The notes under the pieces are model-generated. The model had not been told where the DNA came from. It ran no database searches and saw only the letters and a program-made list of their open reading frames with translations. From Curvibacter sp. PAE-UM (GTDB lineage Bacteria; Pseudomonadota; Gammaproteobacteria; Burkholderiales; Burkholderiaceae_C), in contig NZ_KQ483358.1 in NCBI RefSeq assembly GCF_001432305.1, forward strand, positions 1,372,881 to 1,436,880: 64,000 bases of DNA. Direction: 5' to 3'. The position numbers were made by a program, and so were the translations under genes. This document shows positions 4,628 to 51,906 of this stretch, piece after piece; within the stretch, counting starts at the first letter, position 1, and each line of letters starts with the position of its first letter.

Positions 4628-4659
4628 GGCAGAACTCCTTTCGAGGTCATGTTTCTATA

Positions 4660-4686: not shown

Positions 4687-4760
4687 ACCCAAAGTTCCTG
4701 GGGTTTTACACAGTTCCGTGGAGGGATATCCGCGTGGCGGGCAGGGGCGGCCGAAAACGT

Positions 4761-4793: not shown

Positions 4794-4821
4794 ATGACTA
4801 GCCGATCTACCCCCACCCGCC

Positions 4822-5049: not shown

Positions 5050-5069
5050 ATCTCTGCTGTCACCCCATG

Positions 5070-5100
5070 AAAAAGGGCTACGCACTGCGTAGCCCTTTTT
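5070..5100. terminator. Bidirectional terminator between bfd and bfr
   Basis: Stem GGGCTACGC / GCGTAGCCC (5075-5083 and 5087-5095) with loop ACT. It is flanked by AAAAA on the left and TTTTT on the right, so it can terminate both convergent genes. Confidence 0.92.
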
Positions 5101-5118
5101 GTTGGCGCAGGGACCGGC

Positions 5119-5595: not shown

Positions 5596-5718
5596 GGGCC
5601 TTCCTGTTCGGTGGTGTGGGAGACAGCTTGCATTGTCATCCAAAGCACGTTGCTTGCAAGCCCATGGTCTTGAGGAATGGTGCTGAGAACCATGCCCAGT
5701 AGGGCTTGCAGCTGTATA

Positions 5719-5734
5719 CTGTAAATATGAACAG
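5719..5734. promoter_or_regulatory. LexA (SOS) box at umuD
   Basis: CTGT-N8-ACAG (CTGTAAATATGAACAG), a 16-base palindrome that fits the gammaproteobacterial-type LexA consensus closely. It overlaps the end of a likely -10 element (TATACT, 5715-5720) and includes the proposed umuD start codon at 5727. Confidence 0.87.
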
Positions 5735-6167
5735 TATTACATCGGGGGTGCCGGTACCTGTCGCTGAGGCCTCGGTGCACGCGCTGCAGCGGCTCGATAA
5801 CCGCGTGGCCGCAGGTTTCCCGTCCCCGGCCGAAGACCTGGGTGGACAGCGTGTGGACCTCACGCGTGAACTGGTCACGCATCCGCAGGCCACCTTCCTG
5901 TTGCGTGCGCGGGGCCACTCCATGGTGGGCGCGGGCATCCTGGATGACGACATCCTGGTGGTGAATCGCGCGCTCGTGCCGCGGCACCAGAGCGTGGTGG
6001 TGGCCGTGGTCGACGGCGAGTTCACCGTCAAGACGCTGTGGCAGCGCGCGGGTCGCGTCAAGCTCCAGCCTGCCAACCCGGCCTATCCCGAGATCGTTCC
6101 CACGGACGGCCAGACGCTGGAGATCTGGGGTGTGGTCACGGCCGCTATCCACCAGTATGTGCGCTGA
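5727..6167 (+). CDS. umuD: UmuD, DNA polymerase V accessory subunit (LexA-type self-cleaving peptidase)
   Basis: UmuD is cleaved under RecA stimulation to UmuD', which joins UmuC in translesion polymerase V. The 146-residue product has the expected Ala-Gly cleavage site ([12 protein letters not shown], about residues 27-38). The S24 catalytic Ser lies in [11 protein letters not shown] and the Lys in DGEFTVKTL. Start choice: the ATG at 5727 gives 29 residues before the cleavage site against 24 in E. coli. It lies inside the LexA box, so the message would have almost no leader; GTG at 5748 is an alternative. It is followed after 12 bases by umuC, and both should be SOS-induced. Confidence 0.88.
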
Positions 6168-6179
6168 GCGGAGGGCCCG

Positions 6180-7475
6180 GTGTACGCCCTGATCGACGGC
6201 AACAATTTCTATGTGAGCTGCGAACGCGTATTCCAGCCGCGGCTCGAAGGCCGGCCCGTGATCGTGCTCTCCAACAACGACGGCTGCGCCATCTCGCGCA
6301 GCAACGAGGCCAAGGACATCGGCATTCGCATGGGCGCGCCCTGGCACGAGATCCGGCACATGGAGCGCAGCCACGGCCTGGTGGCCCTCTCGGCCAACTT
6401 TGCGCTCTACGGCGATATGTCCGACCGCATGATGGAGGTGCTTGCGGACTTCGGCGCGCGCCAGGAGATCTATTCCATCGACGAGTGTTTCGTGGACCTC
6501 TCGGGCGTGCCGGGCGACCTGGCGGACAGCGGCCAAGCCATGCGCCAACGTGTGCTGCAGTGGCTGGGCCTGCCTTGCAGCATCGGCATCGGCCCGACCA
6601 AGACCCTGGCCAAGTTCGCCAACCACATCGCCAAGACCGCTGAGCGCAAACCCGAGCCGTATCCGGCGCGGCACGCGCGCGTCTGCAACCTGGCTGCGCT
6701 GGACCGCGCTGAGATCGACGCCCTGCTGGCCGCCACCGATGCCGGCGGGGTCTGGGGTGTGGGCTGGCGTCTGCGAGACCAGCTGCGCGATGCCGGCGTG
6801 CACACGGCGCTGGACCTGGCGTGCCTGGACCCGGTGCAGGTGCAACGTCGCTGGTCCGTGGTGCTCGAGCGCACCGTGCGTGAGTTGCAGGGCCGGCCCT
6901 GCGTGGGTCTGGAGGACGGCCCGCAGGACAGGCGCCACATCGCCGTCACACGTTCCTTCGGCCACAAGACCGGTGCGTTGGCTGATCTGCGCGAGGCCGT
7001 CACCGTCTTCGCCACGCGCGCGGCCGAGAAGCTGCGCCGCCAGCGTGGCGTGGCGGGGCAGGTTTATGTCTACATCCGCACCGGGCACTACGAACAGGCA
7101 CGCCCCCGCTCCAAGGGGCATTCCGTCGAGTTGCCGCAACCCACGAACGACACATCGCGTATCGTGCACGCGGCCCTCGCGGTGCTGGAAGGCATTTACA
7201 AGCAAGGCTACCCCTATGCCAAGGCCGGGGTCATCCTCATGCACCTGCAACGCGAAGGCCTGCGCCAGGGAGAGTTAGATCTGGGAGACGCCCCCGCGCC
7301 GCGTCCACGGCTGGTGCAGGTGCTGGACCAGCTTAACCAGCGTTACGGGCAGGACACGGTCTTTCTGGCCAGCGCCGGCCTGGGCGGCCGCGCGCGCCGC
7401 TGGAGCATGAAGCAGGAACACCGTACGCCGCGCTACACGACCAGCGTCGGGGAACTGCTGGAAGTGCAGGCTTGA
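6180..7475 (+). CDS. umuC: UmuC, catalytic subunit of translesion DNA polymerase V
   Basis: Y-family DNA polymerase that copies past lesions in the SOS response. The 431-residue product starts at GTG with GGAGG six bases upstream. Motif I (ALIDGNNFYVSCERVF) and motif III (IYSIDECFVDLSG) carry the Asp and Asp-Glu metal ligands. The helix-hairpin-helix thumb follows (GIGPTKTLAKFANHIAK) and then the little-finger region. Length is near the 422 of E. coli UmuC. It forms an operon with umuD and converges on prmC with a gap of only 23 bases. Confidence 0.94.
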   Translation: MYALIDGNNFYVSCERVFQPRLEGRPVIVLSNNDGCAISRSNEAKDIGIRMGAPWHEIRHMERSHGLVALSANFALYGDMSDRMMEVLADFGARQEIYSIDECFVDLSGVPGDLADSGQAMRQRVLQWLGLPCSIGIGPTKTLAKFANHIAKTAERKPEPYPARHARVCNLAALDRAEIDALLAATDAGGVWGVGWRLRDQLRDAGVHTALDLACLDPVQVQRRWSVVLERTVRELQGRPCVGLEDGPQDRRHIAVTRSFGHKTGALADLREAVTVFATRAAEKLRRQRGVAGQVYVYIRTGHYEQARPRSKGHSVELPQPTNDTSRIVHAALAVLEGIYKQGYPYAKAGVILMHLQREGLRQGELDLGDAPAPRPRLVQVLDQLNQRYGQDTVFLASAGLGGRARRWSMKQEHRTPRYTTSVGELLEVQA

Positions 7476-7498
7476 GACGGTTCAGGCGAGGCGGGGGT

Positions 7499-8320
7499 TC
7501 ACGTGGGCATCCAGCGTCCGCCGCTGCAACGTTCGATGCCGGCAAGATCCTGGCGTGACTGCACCTCGGTGTAGCCGGCCTGTGCGAGCAGTGCGCGCAC
7601 GGCCTGCGCCTGATCCCAGCCATGCTCCAGCAGGAGCCAGCCGCCGCGCTGCAGTCGGTCCGGCGCCTGGGCGACGATGGTGCGGATGGCATCCAGGCCG
7701 TCGTGTCCTGAACTCAGGGCCATCTGCGGTTCATGTCCCAGCTGGTCCAGATGCGGATCACCCTCGGCGATGTAGGGCGGGTTGGAGACGATCAGGTCGA
7801 ACTTCTGCTGCAGGCCTTGGAGCCAGTTGCCGGCGTGGAAAGCCACATCGAGCGTGAGGCGCTGCGCATTGGCCTGGGCCACGGCCAGGGCCTCAGGGCT
7901 GGTGTCCACGGCCTCGACGCGTGCTTGCGGCCTTTGGCTCTTGAGGGCGAGGGCGATGGCGCCGCTGCCCGTGCCCAGGTCCACCACCGATCCCTGGGGC
8001 GCCAGGTGTTCAAGCGCCCAGTCGACCAGGGTCTCGGTGTCGGGGCGCGGGTCGAGCACACGCGCATCGACCTGCAGCGTCAGGCCGTAGAACTCGCGCT
8101 GGCCGGTCAGGTAGGCCAGGGGCGTGCCGGCAGCGCGGCGGCGCGTGAGATTGATGTAGCGCATCTCCGCATCCGGGGCGAGCGGGTCGCTGTCGTGGGC
8201 GACCAGCCAGGCGCGGTCATTCTGCGGGCGGCCCAGGGCGTGCAGCAGCAGCAACTGTGCATCCAACCGCTCCAGCCCGAGGGCGGAGCAGGCCGCGGCG
8301 AGGGCTTGCTGGATCTGCAT
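7499..8320 (-). CDS. prmC: Release factor glutamine N5-methyltransferase
   Basis: Methylates the Gln of the GGQ motif in release factors RF1 and RF2 using S-adenosylmethionine, which raises termination efficiency. The 273-residue product has an N-terminal helical domain, the family motif AYLTGQREFYGL (about residue 70), the SAM-binding motif VVDLGTGSGAIALAL (about residue 112), and the catalytic NPPY (VSNPPYIAEGDP). It is the third gene of hemA-prfA-prmC, directly after prfA, its substrate gene. Confidence 0.95.
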   Translation of the reverse strand: MQIQQALAAACSALGLERLDAQLLLLHALGRPQNDRAWLVAHDSDPLAPDAEMRYINLTRRRAAGTPLAYLTGQREFYGLTLQVDARVLDPRPDTETLVDWALEHLAPQGSVVDLGTGSGAIALALKSQRPQARVEAVDTSPEALAVAQANAQRLTLDVAFHAGNWLQGLQQKFDLIVSNPPYIAEGDPHLDQLGHEPQMALSSGHDGLDAIRTIVAQAPDRLQRGGWLLLEHGWDQAQAVRALLAQAGYTEVQSRQDLAGIERCSGGRWMPT

Positions 8321-8383
8321 GGTGCTACGGAAAATGTAGCTGCATTCTAGGACGGGAAGCCGATTTCGGGCGGTTTTCCAGGA

Positions 8384-9469
8384 TCAGTTGTTGCCTACTT
8401 CCAACTCCGCCAGCTGCTCGGCCTCACGCGCGTGGCGCAGGGCGCTCACCACGTCGTCCAGCTCGCCCTCCACGATGCGGTCGAGCTTGTAGAGCGTGAG
8501 ATTGATGCGGTGGTCGGTCAGGCGGCCCTGCGGGAAGTTGTAGGTGCGGATGCGGTCGCTGCGGTCGCCGCTGCCGATCAGGCCCTTGCGCATGGCGGCG
8601 TCCTTGGCGGCGCGTTCGCTGCGGTCCTTTTCCTGGATGCGGGCCGAGAGCACCTGCAGGGCCTTGGCCTTGTTGCGGTGCTGGCTGCGGTCGTCCTGGC
8701 ATTCGGCCACGATGCCGGTGGGGATGTGGGTGATGCGCACGGCCGAGTCGGTCTTGTTGATGTGCTGGCCGCCGGCGCCGCTGGCGCGGTAGGTGTCGAT
8801 GCGCAGGTCGGCCGGGTTGATCTGCACGGCCTGGGTTTCGTCCGGCTCGGGCAGCACGGCCACGGTGCAGGCACTGGTGTGGATGCGGCCCTGGGTTTCG
8901 GTGGCCGGCACGCGCTGCACGCGGTGGCCGCCGGATTCGAAACGCAGGTCGCCATAGACGTGGTCACCGGCGATGCGCAGCACCACTTCCTTGTAGCCGC
9001 CGAGTTCGCTGGGCGACTCGCTGATGAGTTCGGTCTTCCAGCCGCGGCGCTCGCAGTACCGTGTGTACATGCGCAGCAGGTCGCCGGCGAACAGCGCCGA
9101 TTCGTCGCCGCCGGTGCCGGCCCGGATTTCCATGAAGGCGTTGCGCGTGTCGTCCGGGTCCTTGGGCAGCAGCAGGCGCTGCAGCTCTTCTTCCAGCTGG
9201 GTCAGCTCGGCCGTGGCCGCGGTGATTTCTTCCTGCGCCATCTCAGCCATGTCCGGGTCGGCCAGCATGCCCTGGGCACCGGCGAGGTCCGCCTCGCGCT
9301 GCTGGTAACGGGCGTAGCGGCCGGCCATCTGCGTGACCTCGTTGTGCTCGCGCGAGAGCGCGAGGAACTGGCCCATGTCGGCCATGATGTCCTCGCGCGA
9401 GAGCAGGAAGTTGAGTTCTTCCAGGCGCTGGGCGTAGCGTTCGAGTTGCTGGCGCAGAAAGGGTTTCAT
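8384..9469 (-). CDS. prfA: Peptide chain release factor 1
   Basis: Recognises UAA and UAG stop codons and triggers peptidyl-tRNA hydrolysis. The 361-residue product matches the usual RF1 length (about 360). The RF1 stop-recognition tripeptide is PAT ([20 protein letters not shown]), and the catalytic GGQ is in [16 protein letters not shown]. The ATG at 9469 (MKPFLRQQ) is chosen. Upstream in frame lies only translated repeat DNA that does not look like protein. The gene sits between hemA and prmC, a classic arrangement. Confidence 0.96.
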
Positions 9470-9498
9470 GGAGATCGAAGGGGAATTCTGTTCGGGTT

Positions 9499-9592
9499 CC
9501 CTCGCCCCTTTGGGGAGAGGGTGGGTGTGAGGGGCTGGGGCCATCGATGCCCTTACCCTGACCCTCTCCCAGCGGGAGAGGGAATACGAGGG
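9499..9592. repeat. Two inverted copies of a CCCTCTCCC-type intergenic palindromic repeat
   Basis: The gap between hemA and prfA (129 bases) is filled by two copies of one repeat in opposite orientation. The right copy is 9550-9592, with CCCTGACCCTCTCCC and a GGGAGAGGG arm. The left copy is 9499-9534 and reads the same on the minus strand (CCACCCTCTCCCC and GGGGCGAGGG). Each copy can fold alone, and the pair can fold together. This resembles a family of intergenic repeats scattered through proteobacterial genomes. The proposed effect on hemA-prfA mRNA is inference. Confidence 0.75.
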
Positions 9593-9598
9593 CCGCCG

Positions 9599-10858
9599 CT
9601 AACGCTCTTTGCGCAGGAAGAAGTGCTGGATGGCGGCGCTGGCGCGTTCGCGCGCGGCGGCGTCGCCGGCATGCAGCTCGGCCAGGGCGCCGTGCAGCAT
9701 CTTCTGCGTCAGGCCCCGGGACAGGGTCTGGAGTACCGCGTCCACGTCCTCGCCCCGGGCCAGGGCCTTGCGCGCGCGCGCGATCTCGGCGGCGCGCCAC
9801 TCGTCGGCCTGGGCGTTGAGCTGCTGGATCAGCGGCACGCTGCTGCGCTGGTCCATCCAGTGCATGAAACTCTGCACGCCGGCGTCGATGATGACTTCGG
9901 CCTGGGCCACGGCGGCCTGACGGTTGGCCTGGCCGGTCTGCACCACGACGGCCAGGTCGTCGACGGTGTAGAGGTAGACGTCGGACAGGCCCTTGACTTC
10001 GGGTTCGATGTCGCGCGGCACGGCCAGGTCCACCATGAACATGGGGCGGTGTTTGCGCAGTTTCAGCGCACGCTCCACCGCACCCAGGCCGATCAGCGGC
10101 AGGGTGCTGGCGGTGCAGCTGATGACGGCGTCGAATTCGTGCAGGCGCTCGGGCAGTTCGGCCAGGCGCATGGTTTCGGCGCCAAAACGACTGGCCAGTT
10201 TTTCGCCACGGTCCAGCGTGCGGTTGGCGATGACCATGGCCTTGGGATTGCGGGCCGCGAAGTGGGTGGCCGCCAGTTCGATCATCTCGCCGGCCCCGAC
10301 AAAGAGGATGCGCACCTGTTGCAGGTCTTCGAACAGGTTGCCGGCCAGGCGCACGGCAGCGGCCGCCATGCTGATGGAGTGCGCGCCGATCTCGGTGGAA
10401 GTGCGCACTTCCTTGGCCACGGCAAAGGAACGTTGGAACAGCTGGTTGAGCGTGGTGCCCAGGGCGCCGGCTTCTTCGGCCACGCGCACGGCGTCTTTCA
10501 TCTGGCCCAGGATCTGCGGCTCGCCCCGCACCATGGAATCGAGCCCGCTGGCCACGCGGAAGGCGTGGCGCGCGGCTTCATTGCCCTGCAGGGTGTAGGT
10601 GTGCGAACGCAGCTCTTCGGCCGAGACCCCGCCGCTTTTGGCCAGCCAGTCCAGCGTGGGGGCCAGCTCCAGCTGCTCGCTGGCGCAGTAGATCTCGGTG
10701 CGGTTGCAGGTGGAGAGGATGGCGGCCTCGGGCGGGCGCGGGAGCGCACCGCGCAGGCCGTGTAAGGTGGGGGGTAGCTGGTCGAGCGCAAAGGCAAACC
10801 GGCCGCGCAAATCGAGCGGCGCGGTCGTGTGATTGATGCCCAAAGCCCAGACTGCCAT
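9599..10858 (-). CDS. hemA: Glutamyl-tRNA reductase
   Basis: First committed step of tetrapyrrole synthesis by the C5 route: reduces Glu-tRNA(Glu) to glutamate-1-semialdehyde with NADPH. The 419-residue product has the N-terminal catalytic domain with [12 protein letters not shown] and the nucleophilic Cys in [11 protein letters not shown] (about residue 50). The Rossmann NADPH site is [19 protein letters not shown] (about residue 190), and a C-terminal dimerisation helix region follows. It is first gene of hemA-prfA-prmC. The DNA just upstream is AT-rich and holds TATAAT and TATAAA hexamers very close to the ATG. Confidence 0.96.
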
Positions 10859-40660: not shown

Positions 40661-41104
40661 ATGGCCGACCAGCAAGAACCCGTTTTCCAGATCCAGCGCG
40701 TCTACCTCAAGGAGGCTTCGCTGGAGCAGCCCAATTCGCCCGGCATCCTGCTGCAGGGCGAGCAGCCTTCGGTCGACATCCAGATCGGCGTCGAGGCCCA
40801 GCCGGTGGCTGAGGGGGTCTACGAGGTGTGCGTGACGGCCACCGTGCACACCCAGATCGCCGACAAGACCGTGTTCCTGGTCGAGGCCAAGCAGGCCGGT
40901 ATTTTCGAGATCCGCAACCTGGCGGAAGACCAGATGGGCCCCATCGTCGGCGTGGTCTGCCCGCAGATCGTCTTTCCCTACCTGCGTGGCAACGTGGCCG
41001 ACATCGTGCAGCGCGCCGGCTTCCCGCCCGTGCACCTGGCAGAGATCAATTTCCAGGCCACGTACGAGCAGCAGCAACAGGGTAACGGGCTCAAGGTCCA
41101 GTAA
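40661..41104 (+). CDS. secB: Protein-export chaperone SecB
   Basis: Cytoplasmic tetrameric chaperone that keeps preproteins unfolded and hands them to SecA. The 147-residue product has the family core [33 protein letters not shown], and [32 protein letters not shown]. Length is near the usual 155. It lies 39 bases before gpsA. Confidence 0.96.
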
Positions 41105-41143
41105 GGCCGGGCCCGTTTCCCCTTACCGCTGTCTTCCCAGACC

Positions 41144-42160
41144 ATGAAAATCCTCGTGCTTGGCGCCGGTGCCTGGGGTACGGCGCTGGCCATGAGCGCC
41201 AGCCAGAACCCGCAGACACGCCACGACGTCACCTTGTGGGCGCGGGACGGGGTGCAGGCGGGGGCCATGCGGGCCGAGCGTGTCAACGCGCGTTATCTGC
41301 CCGGGCTGGCTTTGCCCGAATCCCTGCGGGTGATCGACGGGCCGGCCGATGGGCTGGCCGGTCTGGTGCTGGGCCAGGACCTGGTGGTGATCGGCACCCC
41401 GATGTCCGGTTTGCGCGGCGTGCTACGGCAGATCCAGGCTTGCGACCAGCCCGTGGCCTGGCTGTGCAAGGGCTTCGAGCCGGCCGAACCGGGCTCCCAG
41501 GGGCTGCTGGCGCACGAAATCCAGGCCGAGGTGGCGCCCGGCCTGCAGGCCGGCGTGCTCAGCGGCCCGAGTTTTGCGCTGGAGGTGGCACGTGGCCAGC
41601 CCACGGCGCTGGTGGCCGCCAGCCGCCACGCGGTGGTGCGCGAGCGTCTGGTCGCCGCCTTCCACAGCCCGACGCTGCGCATCTATGACAACGAGGACAT
41701 CGTGGGTGTCGAGGTGGGCGGGGCCGTCAAGAACGTGCTGGCTATCGCCACCGGCCTGTGCGACGGCCTGAACCTGGGCCTGAATGCCCGTGCCGCGCTG
41801 ATCACCCGTGGCCTGGCCGAGATGACGCGCCTGGGGCTGGCCCTGGGCGCGCGGGCCGAGACCTTCATGGGTCTGTCGGGGCTGGGCGACCTGGTGCTGA
41901 CTGCCACCGGCGATCTCAGTCGCAACCGCAAGGTGGGCCTGCTGCTGGCCCAGGGGCAGACGCTGGCGCAGGCCGTGGCTTCGCTGGGCCATGTGGCCGA
42001 GGGCGTCTACTGTGCCCGCACTGTGGTGCAGCGGGCGCAAAGCCTGGGCGTGGACATGCCCATCGCCCAGTGTGTGGTGGCCCTGCTGGATGGCCGCATG
42101 CAGCCGGCCCAGGCCGTGGCGGCCCTGATGGGCCGCACGCCCGGTTCCGAAGCGAAATAA
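41144..42160 (+). CDS. gpsA: Glycerol-3-phosphate dehydrogenase [NAD(P)+]
   Basis: Makes sn-glycerol-3-phosphate from dihydroxyacetone phosphate for phospholipid synthesis. The 338-residue product has the Rossmann motif [18 protein letters not shown] (residues 3-20), [42 protein letters not shown] with the catalytic Lys, and [23 protein letters not shown]. It converges on cphA1 with only 24 bases between. Confidence 0.96.
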
Positions 42161-42184
42161 GACCGGGCCCGGACCGGCCTGCCG

Positions 42185-44764
42185 TCAGGCGCCGTCGCGG
42201 GCGATGCGCGCGCTGATGTGGGCAATGGCTTCTTCCACCTGGTCCACCAGGATCAGGCACAGGTCTCCCTCGCCCAGGCGGTCCATGGCCGTGTCGATGG
42301 CCAGGAACTCGCCGCGGATCTCGTTCACGTCACGCGCGCGCTTGGCCTCGGCCAGGCCTGAGCGCAGCAGGGCCAGCACCTCGCCGTCAGCGCGGCCGCG
42401 CTGGCAGGCGTCCTCAAACAGCACGATCTGGTCGAAGGCATCGCCCAGGATGCGGGTCTGTTCGCGGATGTCCTCGTCGCGCCGGTCGCCGGCGCCGCTG
42501 ATGACCACCGAGCGGCGCTGGGCCGGCATGGCCCCCACGGCCTGCACCAGGGCCAGCATGGCGTCCGGGTTGTGGCCGTAGTCGGCGATCACCGTGGCAC
42601 CCCGGTAGCGGAACAGGTTGAAGCGGCCCTGCGCGTTGTTGGCGTCGTTGTCGAACGTGGCCAGACCCTGGCGGATCAGCGCCCAGTCCAGGCCCAGCGC
42701 CCAGGCGGCCCCCACGGAGGCCATGACGTTCTCGACCTGGAAGCCGATGGCGCCGCCCAGGGTGAGCGGCACACCAGCCAGCGGCAGCCGGTGCTGGACC
42801 TTGCCTTCGGCCGCCACGAGATGACCGTCCTCCACATAGACCGCGCGTTTGCCCTGGGCCAGGTGCGTGGCCATGACCGGGTTGTGGCGGTCGGCGGCGA
42901 AGTAGGTGACCAGGCCGCTGCGGCATTGGCTGGCCATGGCCGCGACGATGGGGTCGGTCGCGTTCAGCACGGCGGTGCCCTTGTCGGAGATGTTCTGCAC
43001 GATCACGCGCTTGAGCACGGCCAGGTCTTCCACCGTGGTGATGAAGTTCAGGCCCAGGTGGTCGCCGGCCCCGACGTTGGTGACCACCGCCACGTCGCAG
43101 CGGTCGAAGGCCAGGCCTTCGCGCAGCATGCCGCCGCGTGCGGTTTCCAGCACGGCGGCGTCCACGTCGGGGTGCTGCAGCACATTGCGCGCGCTCTTGG
43201 GGCCGCTGCAGTCGCCGGTGTCGATGCGCTCGCCGGCAATAAAAACGCCATCGGTGCTGGTCATGCCCACGCGCAGATTGTTCTGCGTGAGCAGGTGGGC
43301 GATCAGGCGCACGGTGGTGGTCTTGCCGTTGGTGCCGGTCACGGCCACCAGCGGGATGCGGCCATTCTCATGTTCCGCGAACATGGTGGAGATGATGGCC
43401 TCGCCCACCGCACGGCCCTTGCCATAGGAGGGTGAGAGGTGCATGCGCAGGCCGGGTGCGGCGTTCACTTCGACGACGCCGCCACCGGTTTCCTCCAGCG
43501 GCTGCAGGATGTTGTCGCAAACCATGTCCACGCCACAGATGTCCAGCCCGACCATCTTGGCGGCAATGATGGCGCGGTGCGCCACCTCGGGGTGCACGTC
43601 GTCGGTGACGTCGGTGGCGCTGCCGCCGGTCGAAAGATTGGCGTTGTGGCGCAGCGAGACGCGCCGGCCGCGCGCCGGCACCGAATCGGCGTTCAGGCCC
43701 TGGCCGGCCAGGCAGGCCAGCGCGATGTCGTCGAAGCGGATCTTGGTCAGCGAGGTCGAATGGCCGCTGCCGCGGCGCGGGTCCAGGTTGACCTGGTCGA
43801 CCAGCTGGCGCACGCTGTGCTCGCCGTCGCCCACCACCGTGGGCGGGTCGCGGCGGGCTGCGGCGACGAGCTTGTTGCCCACCACCAGCAGGCGGAAATC
43901 GTTGCCGGGCAGGAAACGCTCGACCAGGATCTCGTTGTCGAACTCGGAGGCGGCCGCATAGGCCTTGAGCAATTGCTCGCGTGTGGTGATGTTGACGGTG
44001 ACGCCCTTGCCCTGGTTGCCGTTCTTGGGCTTGATCACCACGGGCAGACCGATCTCGCCGGCAGCGGCCCAGGCCTCTTCGGCTGACGTGATCTCACGTC
44101 CCAGCGGCACCGGCACGCCGGCGCTGGCCAGCAGCTTCTTGGTCAGTTCCTTGTCCTGGGCGATCGATTCGGAGATCGCGCTGGTCACGTCCATCTCGGC
44201 GGCCTGGATGCGGCGCTGCTTGCTGCCCCAGCCGAACTGGATCATGCTGCCCGAGGTCATGCGGCGATAGGGGATGCCACGGGCCGTGGCCGCGTCGGCG
44301 ATGCAGCCGGTGCTCGGGCCCAGGCGCACGTCCTCGTCGAGTTCGCGCAGCTGGCCCAGCGCGGCGGCCAGGTCAAACGGTGTGTCTTCCAGGGCGGCGC
44401 GGCACAGGTTCTGGGCCATTTCCAGGGCCATGCGGCCGACAGCCTCTTCGGAATATTCGACCACCACCTGGTAGACGCCGGGTTCGACCGTGGGCGTGGT
44501 GCGGCTGAAGGTCACCGGGCAACCGGCTTGCGCCTGCAGGCCCAGCGTGGCCAGTTCCAGCACATGGGCCAGGGGCACGGTGTCGTCATGACCGGTCGGG
44601 TTCAGCGGCAGGATCTGCGGGAAGCGCGTGCGCAGGCGCAGACCGAAGTTCTGGCGCGCGCTGAGCTCGCATTCCGCTGGCGTGCAGTGGACGACAGCCT
44701 CGATGGCAGTGTGGTGGCTCCACAGATTGGGGCCGCGCAGGGCGCGTATGCGTTTGACTTCCAT
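42185..44764 (-). CDS. cphA: Cyanophycin synthetase CphA1
   Basis: ATP-dependent, template-free polymerase of cyanophycin, a poly-Asp backbone with Arg on each side chain. The 859-residue product has an N-terminal domain (LRGPNLWSHHTAIEA), an ATP-grasp G domain (about 220-470, with GVPVPLGREITSAEEAW and VIKPKNGNQGKGVTVNI), and a Mur-ligase-like M domain with an intact P-loop VTGTNGKTTTVRL (about residue 478) plus a C-terminal Mur domain. Both ligation activities should work: G adds Asp, M adds Arg. It starts two bases after the upstream paralogue's stop. Confidence 0.93.
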   Translation of the reverse strand: MEVKRIRALRGPNLWSHHTAIEAVVHCTPAECELSARQNFGLRLRTRFPQILPLNPTGHDDTVPLAHVLELATLGLQAQAGCPVTFSRTTPTVEPGVYQVVVEYSEEAVGRMALEMAQNLCRAALEDTPFDLAAALGQLRELDEDVRLGPSTGCIADAATARGIPYRRMTSGSMIQFGWGSKQRRIQAAEMDVTSAISESIAQDKELTKKLLASAGVPVPLGREITSAEEAWAAAGEIGLPVVIKPKNGNQGKGVTVNITTREQLLKAYAAASEFDNEILVERFLPGNDFRLLVVGNKLVAAARRDPPTVVGDGEHSVRQLVDQVNLDPRRGSGHSTSLTKIRFDDIALACLAGQGLNADSVPARGRRVSLRHNANLSTGGSATDVTDDVHPEVAHRAIIAAKMVGLDICGVDMVCDNILQPLEETGGGVVEVNAAPGLRMHLSPSYGKGRAVGEAIISTMFAEHENGRIPLVAVTGTNGKTTTVRLIAHLLTQNNLRVGMTSTDGVFIAGERIDTGDCSGPKSARNVLQHPDVDAAVLETARGGMLREGLAFDRCDVAVVTNVGAGDHLGLNFITTVEDLAVLKRVIVQNISDKGTAVLNATDPIVAAMASQCRSGLVTYFAADRHNPVMATHLAQGKRAVYVEDGHLVAAEGKVQHRLPLAGVPLTLGGAIGFQVENVMASVGAAWALGLDWALIRQGLATFDNDANNAQGRFNLFRYRGATVIADYGHNPDAMLALVQAVGAMPAQRRSVVISGAGDRRDEDIREQTRILGDAFDQIVLFEDACQRGRADGEVLALLRSGLAEAKRARDVNEIRGEFLAIDTAMDRLGEGDLCLILVDQVEEAIAHISARIARDGA

Positions 44765-44765
44765 A

Positions 44766-46931
44766 TCAGTGGTCGTTGGTGAGGTTGGCCTTGAAGGTGC
44801 GCAGGCCGGCGCCGATCAGTTCGGGTTTGACGTCCAGCGCCCAGGCGGTGGCCACGGCGGCCATCACCATGTCGGGCTTGGCGGCCTTGGTCGGGTTGAG
44901 CGAGTCCAGCGGCACTTCGCTGACCTCGTCCATCCCCAGGGCCAGCACGATGTGGCGGTCGCGCAGGAACACGGTGCGCTCGCCCTGCTGGCGATGCTGT
45001 GCGATGGCCGGCAGCTGGGCGTCGGAGCCGTAGAAGATGACCTTGCCGTCGCACAGCGCGGCCATCTCGACCACGCGCGGATCGGCGGCGTTGAGCACCG
45101 CCGTGCCGCTGGGCAGGATCACGTCGACCTGGGTGCGCACCACGTTGTAGAGCTTGTCGGCGTCGTCGATGTAGAACTCGGCCAGGTCCTCCAGGCCGTC
45201 CAGATCGGTCACCACGCCGACTGTGCAGCGGTCATAGGCCAGGCCCTCGGACAGGATGGCGCGATGGGTGTGCTCGAACACGGCCGCTTCCAGCGAGCGG
45301 TTGATCAGCAGGCGCTGGCCGGTTTCCCAGTCTGAACCGTCACGGGATTCGACCTGGCGGGGGCCCAGGAAGAAGCCGTCTCGGCAGGCCAGGCCGACCT
45401 GGGTGCCGTTGATGTGCAGCAGCCAGTTCACCATGCGCGCGATGCGGGTGGTGTTGCGCGTGCCGGTGATGCCGACGATGGGGATGCGGCCCTGGTCTTC
45501 GCCGGGGAAGAGGTGGGCCACGATGGCCTGGCCGACGTTGCGCGGCTGGCCTTCGGCGGGCTTGAGATGCATGAGCAGGCCGGGGCCGGCGTTGACCTCG
45601 ATGATGGCGCCGCCCTGCTCGGCCAGCGGGCGCGAGATGTCGGGTGTGACCAGGTCGATGCCGGCGATGTCCAGTCCGACCACCCGCGCGGCCAGCGCGG
45701 CGGCGGCGGCGACCTGGGGGTGCACCTGGTCGGTCACGTCGTAGGCCAGGTCGCCGTGGCGACGGATCAGCACCACCTGGCCGGGCGGCGGAACGGAGGC
45801 GCCGTTGTAGCCCTGGCGCGAGAGTTCGAGCTGGGCGATCGGCTCCTTGTCCAGGACCAGCGGCTCCAGGGGGAATTCCTCCTCCTCGCCGCAGCGCGGG
45901 TCGCTGTTGATCTGGCTGTCGATCAGCTGCAGGATGGTGGAGCGGCCGTCGCCGGTGACGACCTGCTTCTTGCCGCGCGTGGCGGCCACCACCTGCCGGC
46001 CCACGACCAGCAGGCGATGGGCCTCGCCCTCGATGTACTTTTCCACCAGCACGCCGCTGCCTTCGGCATCGGCGGCATGCCAGGCTTTCTCGACGTCCTC
46101 GCGCGTGTGCAGGTCGGTGAACACGCCGCGGCCGTGATTGGCGTCGGTCGGTTTGACGGTGATCGGCACGCCGATGTCCTGTGCCACGCTCCAGGCCTGT
46201 TCGGGGCTGTCGACCTCTTCGCCTTCGGGGACCGGCACGCCGCAGGACTGCAGCAGCTCCTTGGTGAGTTGCTTGTCGCTGGCGATGCTCTCGGCGATGG
46301 CGCTGGTCTGGTCGGTCTCGGCGGTCCAGATGCGGTGCTGGCGTGCGCCATAGCCCAGCTGTACCAGATTGCCGTCGTTCAGGCGGATGTGCGGAATGCG
46401 GCGGTCGGTGGCGGCTTCGACGATGTGCGCCGTGCTCGGGCCCAGGAAGAGCCGGTCGCACAGCTCGCGCAGGCGGGCGACGGTGGTGGACACGTCATAG
46501 GGCCGGTCCTCGATGGCAGCCAGCAGCAGTTCGCGCCCGGCTTCCAGCGCCGCTCGGCCGACTTCTTCCTGCCGGGTACGGAAGGCCATCTTGTAGACAC
46601 CATGTTTGGAGGTCATGCGTGTCTTGCCAAAGCCGGTCTGCATGCCGGCCTGGGTTTGCAACTCCAGCACCACGTGCTCCAGGATGTGGCCGGCCCAGGT
46701 GCCGTCACGCAGCCGCTCCAGGAAGCCGCCGGGCTCGCCCACCCCGCAACGGTGCTGGGCCAGGCCGGGGAGCATGCCGGTCAAACGCTCGTAAAATCCG
46801 GGGATGACATTGGAAGGCCGGTCTTCCAGTTCCCCCAGGTCCAGCCAGGTCTCGATGACCGGGCGATAGGTCCAGATGTTGGGACCGCGCAGATGGCTGA
46901 CCCGCAGAATTTGAAGGTTTTTCTTAGTCAT
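44766..46931 (-). CDS. CphA2-like cyanophycin synthetase with degenerate Mur-ligase site
   Basis: A paralogue of CphA1, 721 residues, about 138 shorter at the C terminus. The N-terminal domain (LRGPNIWTYRPVIETW) and ATP-grasp domain (TVKPTDANHGRGVFTDL) are conserved. The M-domain P-loop reads GITGTRNTTRIAR (about residue 488): the GKT core is lost, and the last Mur domain is missing. This matches the reported CphA2 type, which joins ready-made beta-Asp-Arg dipeptides with one ATP site. It corresponds in position to the second synthetase gene beside cphA in other Burkholderiales. It is first gene of the pair, divergent from the ABC gene. Confidence 0.88.
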   Translation of the reverse strand: MTKKNLQILRVSHLRGPNIWTYRPVIETWLDLGELEDRPSNVIPGFYERLTGMLPGLAQHRCGVGEPGGFLERLRDGTWAGHILEHVVLELQTQAGMQTGFGKTRMTSKHGVYKMAFRTRQEEVGRAALEAGRELLLAAIEDRPYDVSTTVARLRELCDRLFLGPSTAHIVEAATDRRIPHIRLNDGNLVQLGYGARQHRIWTAETDQTSAIAESIASDKQLTKELLQSCGVPVPEGEEVDSPEQAWSVAQDIGVPITVKPTDANHGRGVFTDLHTREDVEKAWHAADAEGSGVLVEKYIEGEAHRLLVVGRQVVAATRGKKQVVTGDGRSTILQLIDSQINSDPRCGEEEEFPLEPLVLDKEPIAQLELSRQGYNGASVPPPGQVVLIRRHGDLAYDVTDQVHPQVAAAAALAARVVGLDIAGIDLVTPDISRPLAEQGGAIIEVNAGPGLLMHLKPAEGQPRNVGQAIVAHLFPGEDQGRIPIVGITGTRNTTRIARMVNWLLHINGTQVGLACRDGFFLGPRQVESRDGSDWETGQRLLINRSLEAAVFEHTHRAILSEGLAYDRCTVGVVTDLDGLEDLAEFYIDDADKLYNVVRTQVDVILPSGTAVLNAADPRVVEMAALCDGKVIFYGSDAQLPAIAQHRQQGERTVFLRDRHIVLALGMDEVSEVPLDSLNPTKAAKPDMVMAAVATAWALDVKPELIGAGLRTFKANLTNDH

Positions 46932-47081
46932 GAAGCTGGGCAGGGTGAACTAGCGGTCCCTGCGGTGGTCTTGCTCGCTGGCAGGGCCAGAGCGGGCGAT
47001 GGCTGCGGTATGTCTCCAAGGTGCCGTGCATAAAACGGGGACAATCGACATCAGCAAATCCTTACCCAGGTTCCGGACTCC
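46932..47081. promoter_or_regulatory. Divergent intergenic region of the cyanophycin locus
   Basis: 150 bases between the cphA2-like start and the ABC-transporter start, which must hold both promoters. I could not define a convincing -35/-10 pair or an operator by eye. The stretch next to the cphA2-like start is A/T-richer than its surroundings. Confidence 0.35.
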
Positions 47082-49385
47082 ATGACTCGCTCTACCCCGT
47101 CAGCAGCTCTATTATCTTTCAGCGACGTTCCGGCGGAATGGCTGGCTGAAATACGCACACAACTGCACCCTGATGAGAACGTCCAGGCGGTGCTGGAGGT
47201 TGACCTCGACACCCGCCTGCAGTTCGGCCGCGGCCTGCTGGTGGCCACCGAACGACGCCTGCTGGCCCGGGCGCCAGGCCAGTCTGCCTGGCAGGCCTGG
47301 GCGTACCACCCCACCCTGAAACTGAATCAGCACGACCACGCCGGTGTCGGCCATCTGGAGCTGCTGGACGGCCAGGGCCGGCTGGCGCACTGGTGTTACA
47401 CCTTGGGACAAAATCTGCAGGCCGTGCGTCTGGCCGAGCAGGTGGGTCACCAGTTGAACAGCCTGAGCACCGGCCAGCCGGTGCCCGTCCCGGTCGGCCA
47501 TGAATGCCCGATCTGCAAGGCGTCCCTGGATCCCGGCCAGGACGAGTGCCCGATCTGCGCCAAGGTCATCCACACCCCGCCGTCGACCTGGACCCTGCTG
47601 CGCCTGTGGCGCTTCGCCAAACCCTACAAAGGCCAGCTGCTGCTGGGTTTCGTGCTCACCTTGCTGGGCACGGCCGCCAGCCTGGTGCCGCCCTACCTGA
47701 CCATGCCGCTGATGGACGAGGTGCTGGTGCCGCTGGAGGCGGGCAAGCAGGTGGACCCCATGCTGGTCGTGCTCTACCTCAGTGGCCTGCTGGGGGCGGC
47801 TGTGGTGGCCTGGGGCCTGACCTGGGCCAAGACCTATATCCTGGCCCTGGTGTCCGAACGCATCGGCGCCGACCTGCGAACCACCACCTACGACCACCTG
47901 ATGCGCCTCTCGCTCGAATACTTCGGCGGCAAGCGCACCGGTGACCTGATGGCACGCATCGGCAGCGAGACCGACCGCATCTGCGTCTTCCTCTCGCTGC
48001 ACCTGCTGGACTTCTTCACCGACCTCATCATGCTGCTGATGACGGCGGCCATCCTGTTCTCCATCAATCCCTGGCTGGCCCTGGCCACGCTGATCCCGCT
48101 GCCCATCATCATGTGGATGATCCACGCGGTGCGGCATCGCCTCAAGACCGGCTTCGAGAAGATCGATCGCGTCTGGTCCGAGGTGACCAGCGTGCTGGCC
48201 GACACCATCCCCGGCATCCGCGTGGTCAAGGCCTTTGCCCAGGAAAATCGCGAGTCGGCCCGTTTCCACGAGGCCAACCGCCAGAACCTGCAGGTCAACG
48301 ACCGCATCAACAAGATCTGGGCGCTGTTTGCGCCCAGCATCTCCTTCCTGACCGAGGTTGGCCTGCTGGTGGTCTGGGGCGTGGGCGTCTGGCTGATCGC
48401 AAAAGGCGAGACCTCGGTGGGCGTGCTGACGGCCTTCATCGCCTATATCAGCCGCTTCTATGGGCGCCTGGACTCCATGAGCCGTATCGTCTCCTGGACC
48501 GAGCACTCGGCCTCGGCGACCAAACGCATCTTCGACATCCTGGATCACGTGTCCAGCGTGCCGGAACCGGCGCAGCCGGTGCATCTGAAGCAGGTGCAGG
48601 GCCGCATCGAGGTGCGCGACGTGGGTTTCCGTTATGGCAACCGCGAGGTCAACCGCGGCATCAACGTCACCATCGAGCCGGGCCAGATGGTGGGTCTGGT
48701 GGGCCACAGCGGCTCGGGCAAGAGCACCCTGGTCAACCTGATCTGCCGCTTTTACGACGTGACCGAGGGTTCGATCCGCATCGACGGCGTCGACATCCGC
48801 TCCCTGCCCGTGGCCGAGTACCGCCGCAACATCGGCCTGGTGCTGCAGGAACCCTTCCTCTTCTTCGGCACCATTGCCGAAAACATTGCCTACGGCAAAC
48901 CCGACGCCACGCGCGAGCAGATCGTGGCGGCCGCCCGTGCCGCCCACGCGCACGAGTTCATCCTGCGCCTGCCGCAGGGTTATGACTCCATCGTGGGCGA
49001 ACGCGGCCAGGGCCTGTCGGGTGGCGAGCGCCAGCGCATCTCGATCGCGCGCGCGCTGCTGATCGACCCGCGCATCCTGATCCTGGACGAGGCCACGGCC
49101 TCGGTGGACTCCGAGACCGAGAAGGAGATCCAGAAGGCGCTGGACAACCTGGTGCAGGGCCGCACGACCATCGCGATTGCCCACCGCCTGTCCACCCTGC
49201 AACGCGCCGACCGCCTGATCGTGCTGGACCGCGGCCAGGTGGTGGAGGAGGGCACGCACGACGAGCTCATGGCACGCCAGGGCGCCTACTACAACCTTTA
49301 CCAGGCGCAAGCGCGCAACGTGGATACCGACATGGATGACGCCGAGGCGGAAGTGAATCCCGAACGCAAGGACGACGCCAAATGA
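47082..49385 (+). CDS. Cyanophycin-locus ABC transporter (fused permease-ATPase with zinc ribbon)
   Basis: A 767-residue half-transporter. The N-terminal soluble domain (1-140) is followed by a zinc ribbon, CPICKASLDPGQDECPIC (about 142-159). A six-helix exporter-type membrane domain (about 175-480) comes next. The nucleotide-binding domain has VGLVGHSGSGKSTLV, LSGGERQRISIARALL and LILDEATASVDSE. MsbA-type layout suggests export or flipping. Annotation pipelines label this family as cyanophycin-metabolism-associated because it sits beside cphA genes, as here; the cargo is not known to me. The stop overlaps the DUF1854 start (ATGA). Confidence 0.87.
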   Translation: MTRSTPSAALLSFSDVPAEWLAEIRTQLHPDENVQAVLEVDLDTRLQFGRGLLVATERRLLARAPGQSAWQAWAYHPTLKLNQHDHAGVGHLELLDGQGRLAHWCYTLGQNLQAVRLAEQVGHQLNSLSTGQPVPVPVGHECPICKASLDPGQDECPICAKVIHTPPSTWTLLRLWRFAKPYKGQLLLGFVLTLLGTAASLVPPYLTMPLMDEVLVPLEAGKQVDPMLVVLYLSGLLGAAVVAWGLTWAKTYILALVSERIGADLRTTTYDHLMRLSLEYFGGKRTGDLMARIGSETDRICVFLSLHLLDFFTDLIMLLMTAAILFSINPWLALATLIPLPIIMWMIHAVRHRLKTGFEKIDRVWSEVTSVLADTIPGIRVVKAFAQENRESARFHEANRQNLQVNDRINKIWALFAPSISFLTEVGLLVVWGVGVWLIAKGETSVGVLTAFIAYISRFYGRLDSMSRIVSWTEHSASATKRIFDILDHVSSVPEPAQPVHLKQVQGRIEVRDVGFRYGNREVNRGINVTIEPGQMVGLVGHSGSGKSTLVNLICRFYDVTEGSIRIDGVDIRSLPVAEYRRNIGLVLQEPFLFFGTIAENIAYGKPDATREQIVAAARAAHAHEFILRLPQGYDSIVGERGQGLSGGERQRISIARALLIDPRILILDEATASVDSETEKEIQKALDNLVQGRTTIAIAHRLSTLQRADRLIVLDRGQVVEEGTHDELMARQGAYYNLYQAQARNVDTDMDDAEAEVNPERKDDAK

Positions 49386-49876
49386 ACTCGCGCCCCATCC
49401 TGAACCAGATGCAGGTTGCCGCGGCCCTGTCGCGCAATGCCTACGACAAGCTGGCGCTGACCCTGGCCGATGGCCAGATACGTACCGGCGTGGTGCCGGT
49501 CCGCGCCTTTCCCATCCAGGCGCCTGAGCGCGACATCTCCCTGCTCGATGCCGACGGCCACGAGGTGGCCTGGATCGAGGAGCTGGCGCGCGTGCCCGAG
49601 CCGGCCCAGGGCCTGATCCGTGCCGCGCTGTCCGAGCGTGAGTTCATGCCCGAGATCCGCGCCATCCGGGGCGTGAGCAGCTTTTCCACGCCCAGCACCT
49701 GGCAGGTCCGCACCGACCGCGGCGACACGGCCTTCGTGCTCAAGGGCGACGAGGACATCCGCCGGCTGGCGGGCAACACCCTGCTGGTGACCGACTCGCA
49801 TGGCATCCAGTTCCTGATCCGCGACATGACGGCGCTCGACCGCGAGAGTCGCCGCCTGCTCGACCGCTTCAAGTGA
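49382..49876 (+). CDS. DUF1854 protein of the cyanophycin locus
   Basis: A 164-residue soluble protein of the DUF1854 family. Marked features are VPVRAFPIQAPERDISLLDADGHEVAWIEEL, FMPEIRAIRGVSSFSTPSTW, and VLKGDEDIRRLAGNTLLVTDSHGIQFLIRD, with a basic end. There is no signal peptide or membrane segment. It is translated from the same message as the ABC transporter through a four-base overlap, so it probably works with that transporter. Its molecular activity is unknown. Confidence 0.85.
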   Translation: MNSRPILNQMQVAAALSRNAYDKLALTLADGQIRTGVVPVRAFPIQAPERDISLLDADGHEVAWIEELARVPEPAQGLIRAALSEREFMPEIRAIRGVSSFSTPSTWQVRTDRGDTAFVLKGDEDIRRLAGNTLLVTDSHGIQFLIRDMTALDRESRRLLDRFK

Positions 49877-49903
49877 ACCCGGCTTCGCCGGGCTGATTCG
49901 CAC

Positions 49904-50776
49904 ATGAACTCTGTTTCCGACTATTCCGAGACCTTCCTGCAGCAGCTGGCGCAGGCCGATGTGGCCCGGGCCCTGCGGGAAGACGTGGGCAGCGGCGACC
50001 TGACCGCCGGCCTGATCGATCCGGCGCGCCGGGCGCATGCGCGTATCCTGGCCCGCGAGAGCGCCGTGATCTGCGGTGCGGCCTGGGTGCAGGCCACCTT
50101 GCAGCAGGTGGTGCCTCAGGCCAGCGTCACATGGCACGTGCGTGACGGCCAGCGCTGCGAGGCCGACCAGGTGGTGCTGGAAATGACCGGGCCGGCGCGC
50201 GGCCTGCTGACGGCCGAACGCACCATGCTCAACTTCCTGCAACTGCTCAGCGCCGTGGCCACGCACACTGCCACCTATGTGCAGGCGGTGCAGGGTGTGC
50301 CGGGCAACCGCGCACGCATCGTCGACACGCGCAAGACCCTGCCCGGCCTGCGCCTGGCGCAGAAGTACGCGGTGCACTGCGGCGGTGGGACCAACCACCG
50401 CATCGGCCTGTACGACGCCGTGCTGATCAAGGAAAACCACATCGCTGCCGCTGGCGGCGTGACGGCCGTTCTGCAACGCGCCGCAACCGTGGCGCCCACG
50501 GCCGAGTTCGTCGAAATCGAGGTCGAGACCCTGGCCCAGCTCCAAGAGGCCCTACTGGCCGGTGCCCGCATGGTGCTGCTGGACAATATGAGCCTTGAAA
50601 CGCTGCGCGAGGCCGTGCGCCTGAACGCCGGGCGCGCCATCCTGGAGGTCTCGGGTGGGGTGAACATGGGCACGGTACGCGAGATCGCCGCCACCGGCGT
50701 CGACCGCATCTCGATCGGCGCCCTGACCAAGGATGTGAAGGCCGTTGATTTCTCCATGCGGTTTACGGAGCTCTGA
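49904..50776 (+). CDS. nadC: Quinolinate phosphoribosyltransferase
   Basis: Forms nicotinate mononucleotide from quinolinate and PRPP in NAD synthesis. The 290-residue product has the family motifs [72 protein letters not shown] and [23 protein letters not shown]. The stop overlaps nadA by one base (TGATG). A GC hairpin without a T-run lies just upstream. Confidence 0.95.
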
Positions 50777-51906
50777 TGAATACCGGAACCCACGTCATCG
50801 ACGTTGAATACGAGCAGCCCGAGACAGCGCAGGGTGAGGGCGCGGCCTGTTCCACGCATCACGCCTGGGCGCGCGTGCCGGTGGAGCCCGGCCCGGCCGA
50901 GCGTGCTGCGCTCAAGGACAAGATCCGTCGCCTGCTCAAGGAAAAGAACGCGGTGATGGTCTCGCACTACTACGTGCACCCGGACCTGCAGGACCTGGCC
51001 GAGGAAACCGGCGGCATCGTCAGCGATTCGCTCGAGATGGCACGCTTCGGTCGCGACCACGCGGCCCAGACCCTGGTGGTCTCGGGTGTGCGCTTCATGG
51101 GCGAAACCTCCAAGATCCTCTCGCCGCACAAGCGCGTGCTCATGCCCGACCTGGACGCGACCTGCTCGCTGGACCTGGGCTGTCCCATCGACGAGTTCTC
51201 GGCCTTCTGCGATGCCCATCCTGATCGCACCGTGGTGGTCTATGCCAACACCAGCGCCGCCGTGAAGGCGCGCGCCGACTGGCTGGTCACCTCCAGCTGC
51301 GCGCTGGACATCGTGCGCGCCCTGAAAGAGCAGGGCCACAAGATCCTGTGGGCGCCGGACCGCCACCTGGGTGGCTACATCCAGCGCGAGACCGGGGCCG
51401 ACATGCTCATGTGGAACGGCTCCTGCATCGTGCACGACGAGTTCAAGAGCTTCGAACTGGAAGAACTCAAGAAGGAGCACCCAAAGGCCAAGGTGCTGGT
51501 GCACCCGGAGTCGCCCGCCGCCGTGGTGGCCTTGGCAGACGCGGTGGGCTCCACCTCGGGCATCCTCAAGGCCGCGCAGGAAATGGACGCGCCGGAGTTC
51601 ATCGTGGCCACCGACAAGGGCATGATGCACAAGCTGCGCACCCTCAACCCCGGCAAGACCTTCATCGAGGCGCCCACCGCCGGCAACAGCGCCACCTGCA
51701 AGAGCTGCGCGCACTGCCCCTGGATGGCCATGAACGGGCTGGCCGGGGTGGCCCAGGTGCTGGAGAGCGGGGGCAACGAGATCCACGTGGACCCGGCGCT
51801 TATTCCGCGTGCGCGGGTGCCGATTGACCGCATGCTGGCCTTCACGGCAGCGCTCAAGGCCGGCCAGCCGGTCTCCGGCCTGGTGCCCCATATCGGGGCG
51901 GCATAA
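50776..51906 (+). CDS. nadA: Quinolinate synthase
   Basis: [4Fe-4S] enzyme that condenses iminoaspartate with dihydroxyacetone phosphate to quinolinate. The 376-residue product has [83 protein letters not shown], and [16 protein letters not shown]. Three cluster Cys are expected across these regions. Translational coupling to nadC keeps the two consecutive steps together; nadB is not in the window. Confidence 0.95.

Follow-up and report, generated by a model that had tools for sequence, protein, structure and literature searches.

Two adjacent genes for cyanophycin synthetase (CphA) lie on the minus strand of a stretch of 64,000 nucleotides from Curvibacter sp. PAE-UM (the window, to whose positions all coordinates refer), and with a probability of about 65 %, judged from sequence comparison, they are a single synthetase that came to be split over two polypeptides following an ancient duplication in tandem. 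The first of the two genes codes for a truncated paralogue of 721 amino acids (aa) at 44766..46931, and the second for a full-length CphA of 859 aa at 42185..44764, called the partner in the following. Both were assigned by open reading frames (ORFs) and profile matches, and a single base (44765, minus strand) lies between the stop codon of the paralogue and the start codon of its full-length neighbour. Among the relatives of the two proteins the catalytic residues are divided between the genes, the gene order is fixed, each protein forms one clade, and the N-domain site of the paralogue outlasts its decayed Mur-ligase and ATP-grasp sites.

CphA1 carries three active sites on one chain. In addition to the ATP-grasp (G) and the Mur-ligase (M) domains, whose residue roles are taken here from passages of PMC9427784, a third, cryptic site was described in the N domain, a metallopeptidase-like endo-cyanophycinase with the motif C-x19-HxxEH which makes primers (PMC9262961). 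In the proposed mechanism the partner would add aspartate (Asp) with its G domain and arginine (Arg) with its M domain and would be unable to cut the polymer. It is expected to depend on primers, because it has no cutting site, as is the case in TmCphA1. The N-domain endo-cyanophycinase of the paralogue would cut the polymer into short (beta-Asp-Arg)n, which the partner would extend, and primer ends would be renewed in this way. We infer that the paralogue cuts cyanophycin and that it does so on behalf of the partner, either in trans or as part of a mixed oligomer. Since cutting would now be on a gene of its own, the paralogue could also mobilise polymer where cyanophycinase is missing. A precedent exists, as the primer-dependent TmCphA1 no longer needed primer once SuCphA1 with inactivated G and M sites was supplied in trans (PMC9262961); this is the same arrangement as the one proposed for paralogue and partner.

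Catalytic sites of the two proteins

In the paralogue of the window the motif C-x19-HxxEH is complete at residues 62-86 (46674..46748, minus strand; role after PMC9262961). Its G residues, from K220 to L453 in the numbering of the protein itself, were located by alignment at 45573..46274 on the minus strand (roles after PMC9427784). K220, K260, H266, R306, D426 and E445, again in its own numbering, are kept, that is, the residues for ATP, Mg and the polymer end are retained. All other residue numbers are those of CphA1. Three Asp-binding residues are gone, R323 being replaced by G and R458 by L while S396 is deleted; N394 is aligned with D394. The M site is lost, with T at 499 and E-D at 585-586, and the C-terminal lid is absent. 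A reading of the same DNA made without database searches (the sequence-only reading) had left the paralogue with its ATP-grasp site only. The loss of the Mur-ligase ATP site was borne out, but the complete N-domain motif had been overlooked, and the description of the ATP-grasp site as kept was incomplete, as three Asp-binding residues are lost beside the retained ones for ATP, Mg and the polymer end.

The N-domain site of the partner is degenerate (44552..44605, minus strand): the Zn ligands C59 and H83 are gone and H79 and E82 are still there. The partner is thus without C-x19-HxxEH, which is found in 83 % of CphA1 at 70 % non-redundancy (PMC9262961); the motif does not define CphA1, as TmCphA1 lacks it too. 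All G residues (K220, K261, R309, D431, E450), all Asp-binding residues (R323, N394, S396, R458) and the M residues K499, D585 and H586 are present, the latter in an intact stretch from K499 to H586 at 43058..43324 on the minus strand according to the alignment. The earlier description of this protein as a full enzyme with both ATP sites therefore stands. One replacement was found, namely Q for H267 in the P-loop of the G domain, a position occupied by H in all five CphA1 sequences compared. Exchange of H267 for Ala inactivates the G domain of SuCphA1. However, the idea that Q marks a dead G site was rejected, because in one genome (G199) the paralogue has lost G residues and the partner has Q, and because both synthetases of another locus (L032) have Q as well. 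Q at 267 may therefore still work.

Division of the sites among relatives

A total of 134 paralogues and 123 partners were counted. They come from 45 loci of the window's order (the window included), from 70 named records, from 12 loci of a gammaproteobacterial family outside the order (f119) and from 7 loci of a phylum-wide draw. Since the rows share descent and the sets partly coincide, the counts are not independent; L026 and L067, which lie on contigs of equal length, appear to be from a single genome. Dropped from the counts were five short paralogue fragments of the named set (190-611 aa), ORFs below 400 aa in the first set including a 157-aa partner fragment in L022, both halves of a split partner in L017, the repeats L179 and L180 of L157 and L158, the fragment L204, and four ORFs of classical loci which are Mur-ligase-like or lack the N and G parts of a synthetase. 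The shorter L157 paralogue (660 aa) was kept. In L017 (G010) the partner reads as two overlapping ORFs (7267-9850), which points to a frameshift or an assembly error.

By a count made without alignment, the motif C-x19-HxxEH occurs in 133/134 paralogues and in 0/123 partners. Alignment gave all eight N-site residues in 133/134 paralogues; among the partners C59 is found in 0/123 and H83 in 2/123. In the N domain of 114 paralogues, whose mean pairwise identity is 67 % there, 31 of 154 aligned columns are at least 99 % conserved and all 8 site residues are among them (hypergeometric P 1.2e-6), while none of the 8 falls into a conserved column in 111 partners. The Asp-binding trio R323/S396/R458 shows the opposite distribution, being complete in 123/123 partners, with none of the three in any of the 134 paralogues. 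K220, K261, R309, D431 and E450 are shared, with 123/123 partners and 132/134 paralogues having all five. The M trio K499/D585/H586 is present in 123/123 partners and in 25/134 paralogues. The assumption that the M domain of the paralogue is always dead was given up for this reason; rows from Cupriavidus, Ralstonia, Pandoraea and Achromobacter are among the 25. At position 267 an H was found in 120/134 paralogues, whereas partners have Q in 118/123 and H in 5/123. In 114 loci the paralogue has H here and the partner Q, which is the usual combination; L034 (G059) has H in both, and in f119 four of five partners read have H.

Single synthetases of a class-wide draw possess all eight N-site residues in 8/9 cases by alignment, L167 being the exception; the exact x19 spacing is present in 3/9 of them and in 3/12 classical rows. 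In many single-synthetase loci the protein directly after CphA1 is a distinct, Mur-ligase-like one of about 560-590 aa (L060, L063, L064, L159, L160, L161, L163 and L164).

The descent of the pair was followed in a tree of 71 rows built from the ATP-grasp columns, with positions 267, 323, 388-400 and 458 excluded. It was made by a quick method with Shimodaira-Hasegawa-like approximate likelihood ratio (SH-aLRT) support in place of a bootstrap. The paralogues form one clade (SH-aLRT 99) and the partners another (97), which are joined at 98 and sit apart from 13 classical synthetases. As the two clades are sisters, one old duplication is the likely origin of the pair. For the 30 paralogues of the tree, at least five changes are needed to account for the state of the M trio, and repeated loss of the M site since the split is therefore probable. 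In all 112 loci of the order set and the named-record set that hold both genes, these share one strand and the paralogue is the upstream one. The gap has a median of 46 bases (111 loci of these sets, by a start-codon rule); it is one base in the window.

Further information on the fate of the paralogue comes from f119, in which 36 genomes were searched and the paralogue was found in 12. All eight N-site residues are intact in 12/12, and H267 is lost in 12/12, being replaced by R in ten and by L in one and deleted in the remaining one. In two genomes the decay of the G site has gone further, G299 being also without E450 and G199 without K220, D431 and E450, so that both have lost Mg ligands. 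Judged by these residues, the N site is the one that survives when the paralogue decays. This bears on the suggestion that the paralogue merely remained from the duplication as a structural or regulatory protein without catalysis. Such a protein would fit with an M site that was probably lost several times and a G site that decayed in f119, but it would hardly retain eight N-site residues in all rows but one at the N-domain identity given above, nor five G-site residues in 132 of 134, nor its constant place upstream of the partner, and we regard it as very improbable.

The retained ATP-grasp site invites a different explanation, namely that the paralogue is a convergent CphA2 which joins beta-Asp-Arg (or longer pieces) instead of Asp to polymer ends. 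The sequence-only reading had called it CphA2-like and had proposed that one enzyme makes the polymer and the other re-joins beta-Asp-Arg. Indeed, the paralogue resembles an active ligase that uses a different acceptor, because the Asp trio is gone in 134/134 paralogues and the residues for ATP, Mg and polymer are kept in 132/134; at the ATP-grasp site of the window paralogue a non-Asp acceptor, including beta-Asp-Arg, may be used. Most paralogues, that of the window included, have also lost the M site and the lid, and CphA2 is described as being without the M P-loop and the lid (PMC9427784). However, the M trio is intact in 25 paralogues, and the N-site motif, reported to be absent from CphA2 (PMC9262961), is present in the window paralogue at residues 62-86. 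The ATP-grasp site decays in f119, the paralogue is sister to the CphA1-type partner (in a tree holding no CphA2 sequence), and cyanophycinase that could supply dipeptides is missing above cut-off from 41/45 genomes with the locus (see below). Similarity scores for the paralogue were 457 bits against the CphA1 entry 7lg5, 184 bits against 8fxh and 181 bits against 7ta5; the last two were labelled 'RimK domain-containing protein ATP-grasp' and 'Glutathione synthase' in the search and are the CphA2 structures. The label CphA2-like is thus supported neither by the N-site motif nor by the scores, and the re-joining part of the earlier proposal is weakened. The motif, the scores and f119 led us to give up the convergent CphA2 as the main explanation, and it is considered unlikely.

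Several observations weigh against a synthetase simply split between two genes. The ATP-grasp residues kept by the paralogue exceed the needs of a pure cutter, and since five of them are found in 132/134 rows the paralogue probably has a ligase role outside f119. In most lineages a second role, possibly the ligation of a different acceptor, is suggested by an ATP-grasp site that is conserved but has lost R323, S396 and R458. The losses are not complete on either side: partners, whose N site is thus only partly erased, retain H79 in 92/111 and E82 in 81/111; at the fourth Asp-binding position, N394, an N was aligned in 105/115 paralogues, at the edge of a five-residue deletion; and the Mg ligand E558 of the M domain is still E in 110/115 paralogues. 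Only the paralogue of L143 (4843-7056) has lost C59 together with most of the N site, though HxxEH remains. Furthermore, standalone synthetases with a dead N site exist, both among the loci compared (L032 and L167) and in TmCphA1 (PMC9262961), and a cutting partner is therefore not obligatory for every such CphA. The second locus L032 (G052; 2193-9347) consists of two convergent CphA which lack the N site, have Q at 267 and lie outside the pair clades; a cyanophycinase and an Asparaginase_2 gene adjoin them. Finally, both CphA of Ralstonia eutropha H16 reportedly gave no isolable cyanophycin when expressed in E. coli (Adames 2013), and the natural product may differ. In the same work CphA' of R. 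eutropha H16 is said to lack much of a 'J-loop', a loss which may correspond to the deletion around position 396 in the paralogues.

The ABC/DUF1854 genes and the distribution of cyanophycinase

The plus strand of the locus carries two more genes, divergent from the synthetase pair and separated from it by an intergenic region of 150 bases (46932..47081, without strand). The first codes for a half-size ABC exporter of 767 aa (47082..49385; ORF and NF052233), and the second, with a 4-base overlap, for a DUF1854 protein of 164 aa (49382..49876; ORF and NF052234). All four ORFs were confirmed at the places and on the strands given by the sequence-only reading, and profile matches agreed with its families, i.e. 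two cyanophycin synthetases, an ABC exporter and DUF1854. No sigma-70-type or terminator-like match was obtained in the intergenic region 46932..47081, nor an Rfam match at gathering score in 41000-51000. With the NCBIfam model for cyanophycin synthetase NF010623 (cut-off 877) the full-length protein scores 1240.5 bits and the paralogue 1016.8 bits; the stricter equivalog TIGR02068 (cut-off 850) is passed by the full-length protein (984.7) and failed by the paralogue (706.1). The ABC protein passes NF052233, 'cyanophycin metabolism-associated ABC transporter', with 1391.6 bits against a cut-off of 880, and the DUF1854 protein passes NF052234, 'cyanophycin metabolism-associated DUF1854 family protein', with 223.3 bits against 150. 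As these names state it, the link to cyanophycin is already in the public model library; they give an association and no function. No mention of 'DUF1854' or 'cyanophycin metabolism-associated' was found in the literature searched.

The ABC protein begins with a domain (residues 18-130; 47133..47471, plus strand) that is predicted to have a PH-like fold and that the earlier reading, right about zinc ribbon and exporter, had missed. The structure model has a block pLDDT (predicted local distance difference test) of at least 94 over residues 21-130. The best Protein Data Bank (PDB) matches in Foldseek are largely PH, PTB or PH-like by entry title with a probability of mostly 0.98-1.00, and the best E was 1.3e-3, no PDB match reaching E 0.001. 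A zinc ribbon (C142, C145, C156, C159; 47505..47558, plus strand; sequence and alignment) follows between the PH-like and the membrane domains. At each of the four positions Cys is found in 90 % or more of the 37 sequences aligned, the window included; the ribbon is missing in L083, L092 and L106. For the exporter part the next-best NCBIfam model is MsbA. The DUF1854 model (pLDDT 85.2; predicted template modelling score 0.54) matched nothing in the PDB at E 0.001 or better, and no fold is therefore claimed. Two giant ORFs (an ABC protein of 1510 aa in L026 and a DUF1854 protein of 1856 aa in L044) were rejected as fusions, as they overlap other genes and are taken to be upstream extensions of open frames produced by the first-start rule.

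The distribution of these genes was determined in 130 genomes of the order, to judge by named relatives the Burkholderiales, the window's own included, with a synthetase threshold of E 1e-100 and cyanophycinase matches (TIGR02069) to E 1e-10. DUF1854 (NF052234) occurs in 45/130 genomes, and exactly these 45 also have the ABC protein (NF052233). A synthetase match was found in 50/130, that is in all of these 45 and in G015 (below cut-off), G040, G079, G102 and G113. The four genes thus form one conserved locus, and ABC/DUF1854 pairs mainly in genomes without cphA, an outcome which would have spoken against the earlier grouping, were not seen in the order. Cyanophycinase matches were obtained in 11/130 genomes, in 9 of them above cut-off. 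Only four of the 45 ABC/DUF1854 genomes have one above cut-off (G020, G052, G064, G091; in G052 the best match adjoins the second synthetase locus), G101 has a match below it, and 41/45 have no cyanophycinase above cut-off. It is present in 4/5 of the other synthetase genomes (G040, G079, G102, G113) and also in G112, which has no synthetase match. Two kinds of locus can therefore be distinguished in the order: in one, cyanophycinase accompanies a lone synthetase, and in the other the pair goes with ABC/DUF1854 and cyanophycinase is mostly missing.

Outside the order the class-wide draw of 232 genomes had DUF1854 in 7, namely the window, two genomes of its family, G163, G199, G276 and G299, and a synthetase in 14, nine of which lie outside the order and are without DUF1854. 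G199 and G299 have the whole locus. G276 has ABC and DUF1854, G163 a partial DUF1854, and neither has a synthetase at E 1e-100. In a phylum-wide draw of 299 genomes DUF1854 was found in 18; 8 new ones were examined and 7 have the pair beside it, the eighth (G619, 27 bits) having none.

In the window the earlier reading had seen no cyanophycinase gene, and this extends to the whole assembly, which has no TIGR02069 match (E 1e-10) and no PF03575 or PF01112 match at E 0.001; TIGR01975 gave one match of 19.7 bits against a cut-off of 331. PF03575 was matched in 4 and PF01112 in 6 of 15 pair genomes searched, and both in 4 of 4 classical genomes; TIGR01975 was above cut-off in 0 of these 19. Of 903 betaproteobacterial genomes that have CphA1, no more than 2.8 % were reported to contain a cyanophycinase, a near absence which Sharon and Schmeing (2023) called 'unanticipated' and for which they suggested unknown isozymes (PMC10206079). 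A review speaks against its being absent in general, with extracellular cyanophycinases listed from Nitrosomonas, Ralstonia and others (PMC8560796). A tentative extension of the split synthetase is that the paralogue is the long-missing betaproteobacterial cyanophycinase, one N-domain endo-cyanophycinase that both makes primers and mobilises stored polymer; this is considered less likely than not, and less probable than the division itself.

The locus has also been considered as a device for export, in which the partner builds, the paralogue cuts, and ABC/DUF1854 exports short beta-Asp-Arg oligomers. An exporter-type ABC gene that shares its 45/130 genomes with DUF1854 and always accompanies a synthetase match agrees with this, as do the mostly missing cyanophycinase and the separate genes for cutting and building. 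However, the NCBIfam name states only 'associated', the transport role is predicted from sequence, and G276 shows that the module is not specific for cyanophycin. Its related ABC protein (588.5 bits, under the NF052233 cut-off) has a zinc ribbon and an adjoining DUF1854 gene in a genome without a synthetase match at E 1e-100, so a cyanophycin-only module was rejected and an older or wider one is indicated. Export of oligomers as the purpose of the locus is accordingly rated as improbable; ABC/DUF1854 would be a linked but separate function, and that it moves beta-Asp-Arg oligomers is a guess. The module of G276 (L156) lies at 5980-8718, with an ORF weakly like the subtilisin-like protease QhpE (45 bits, cut-off 165) about 3 kb upstream and an Acetyltransf_6 protein about 2 kb downstream. 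In G163, of the same genus, a short DUF1854 match (72 positions, about 8034-8249 of L155), near which no ABC gene was found, is a possible remnant. Sulfolobus acidocaldarius, a control genome, has DUF1854 (PF08909) above cut-off and no synthetase match at 1e-100.

Comparison with described systems and significance

The domain order of the pair is that of CphA1 as in SuCphA1 (7lg5), the partner having its Asp- and Arg-adding residues and the paralogue its cutting site; the difference is that sites on one chain in CphA1 are here divided between two genes. TeCphA1 has the entry 7wac and TmCphA1 the entry 7lgn. The partner resembles TmCphA1 in the absent N motif and the present G and M residues. 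However, TmCphA1 was published as working alone with primer, whereas here a cutting paralogue stands directly upstream in every one of the 112 loci with both genes, and position 267, H in the five CphA1 sequences, is mostly Q in the partners. With CphA2, a beta-Asp-Arg polymerase, the paralogue shares the loss of M site and lid in most rows; it differs in the kept N-site motif, in its higher score with CphA1 and in the M trio of 25 rows.

A cluster of two cphA and an ABC transporter without cyanophycinase is already in print: 'Group 1' from activated sludge has two cphA copies, an ABC transporter and no cphB, and is very likely the same kind of locus as that of the window (PMC10687191). The passages of that paper available to us report flanking insertion sequences and do not extend to active sites or DUF1854. 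In Sideroxydans an adjacent CphA1/CphA2 pair without cyanophycinase was described, the second enzyme being called CphA2 (PMC5178258), and in Herminiimonas two cphA copies with no cyanophycinase found (PMC5670224); a division of active sites is not part of the passages available from either paper. No description of CphA active sites divided over two proteins was found in the literature searched, subscription papers being outside the search.

The apparently split synthetase of many soil and water bacteria is a testable candidate for the way in which they manage without the usual cyanophycin-degrading enzyme. For the suspected unknown cyanophycinase isozyme, a direct candidate is seen in a paralogue that holds on to the site for cutting as the others decay. 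If it were the missing cyanophycinase, this would account for an enzyme found in just 2.8 % of the 903 betaproteobacterial CphA1 genomes (PMC10206079), cutting could be controlled apart from synthesis, and the ABC protein with its PH-like domain and zinc ribbon would, together with DUF1854, handle the oligomers left by an endo-cutter. If the division holds, full-length cphA expressed alone is predicted to be primer-limited, which is relevant to polymer production, and the pair would be a natural case in which two opposed activities, building and cutting, were taken apart by gene duplication.

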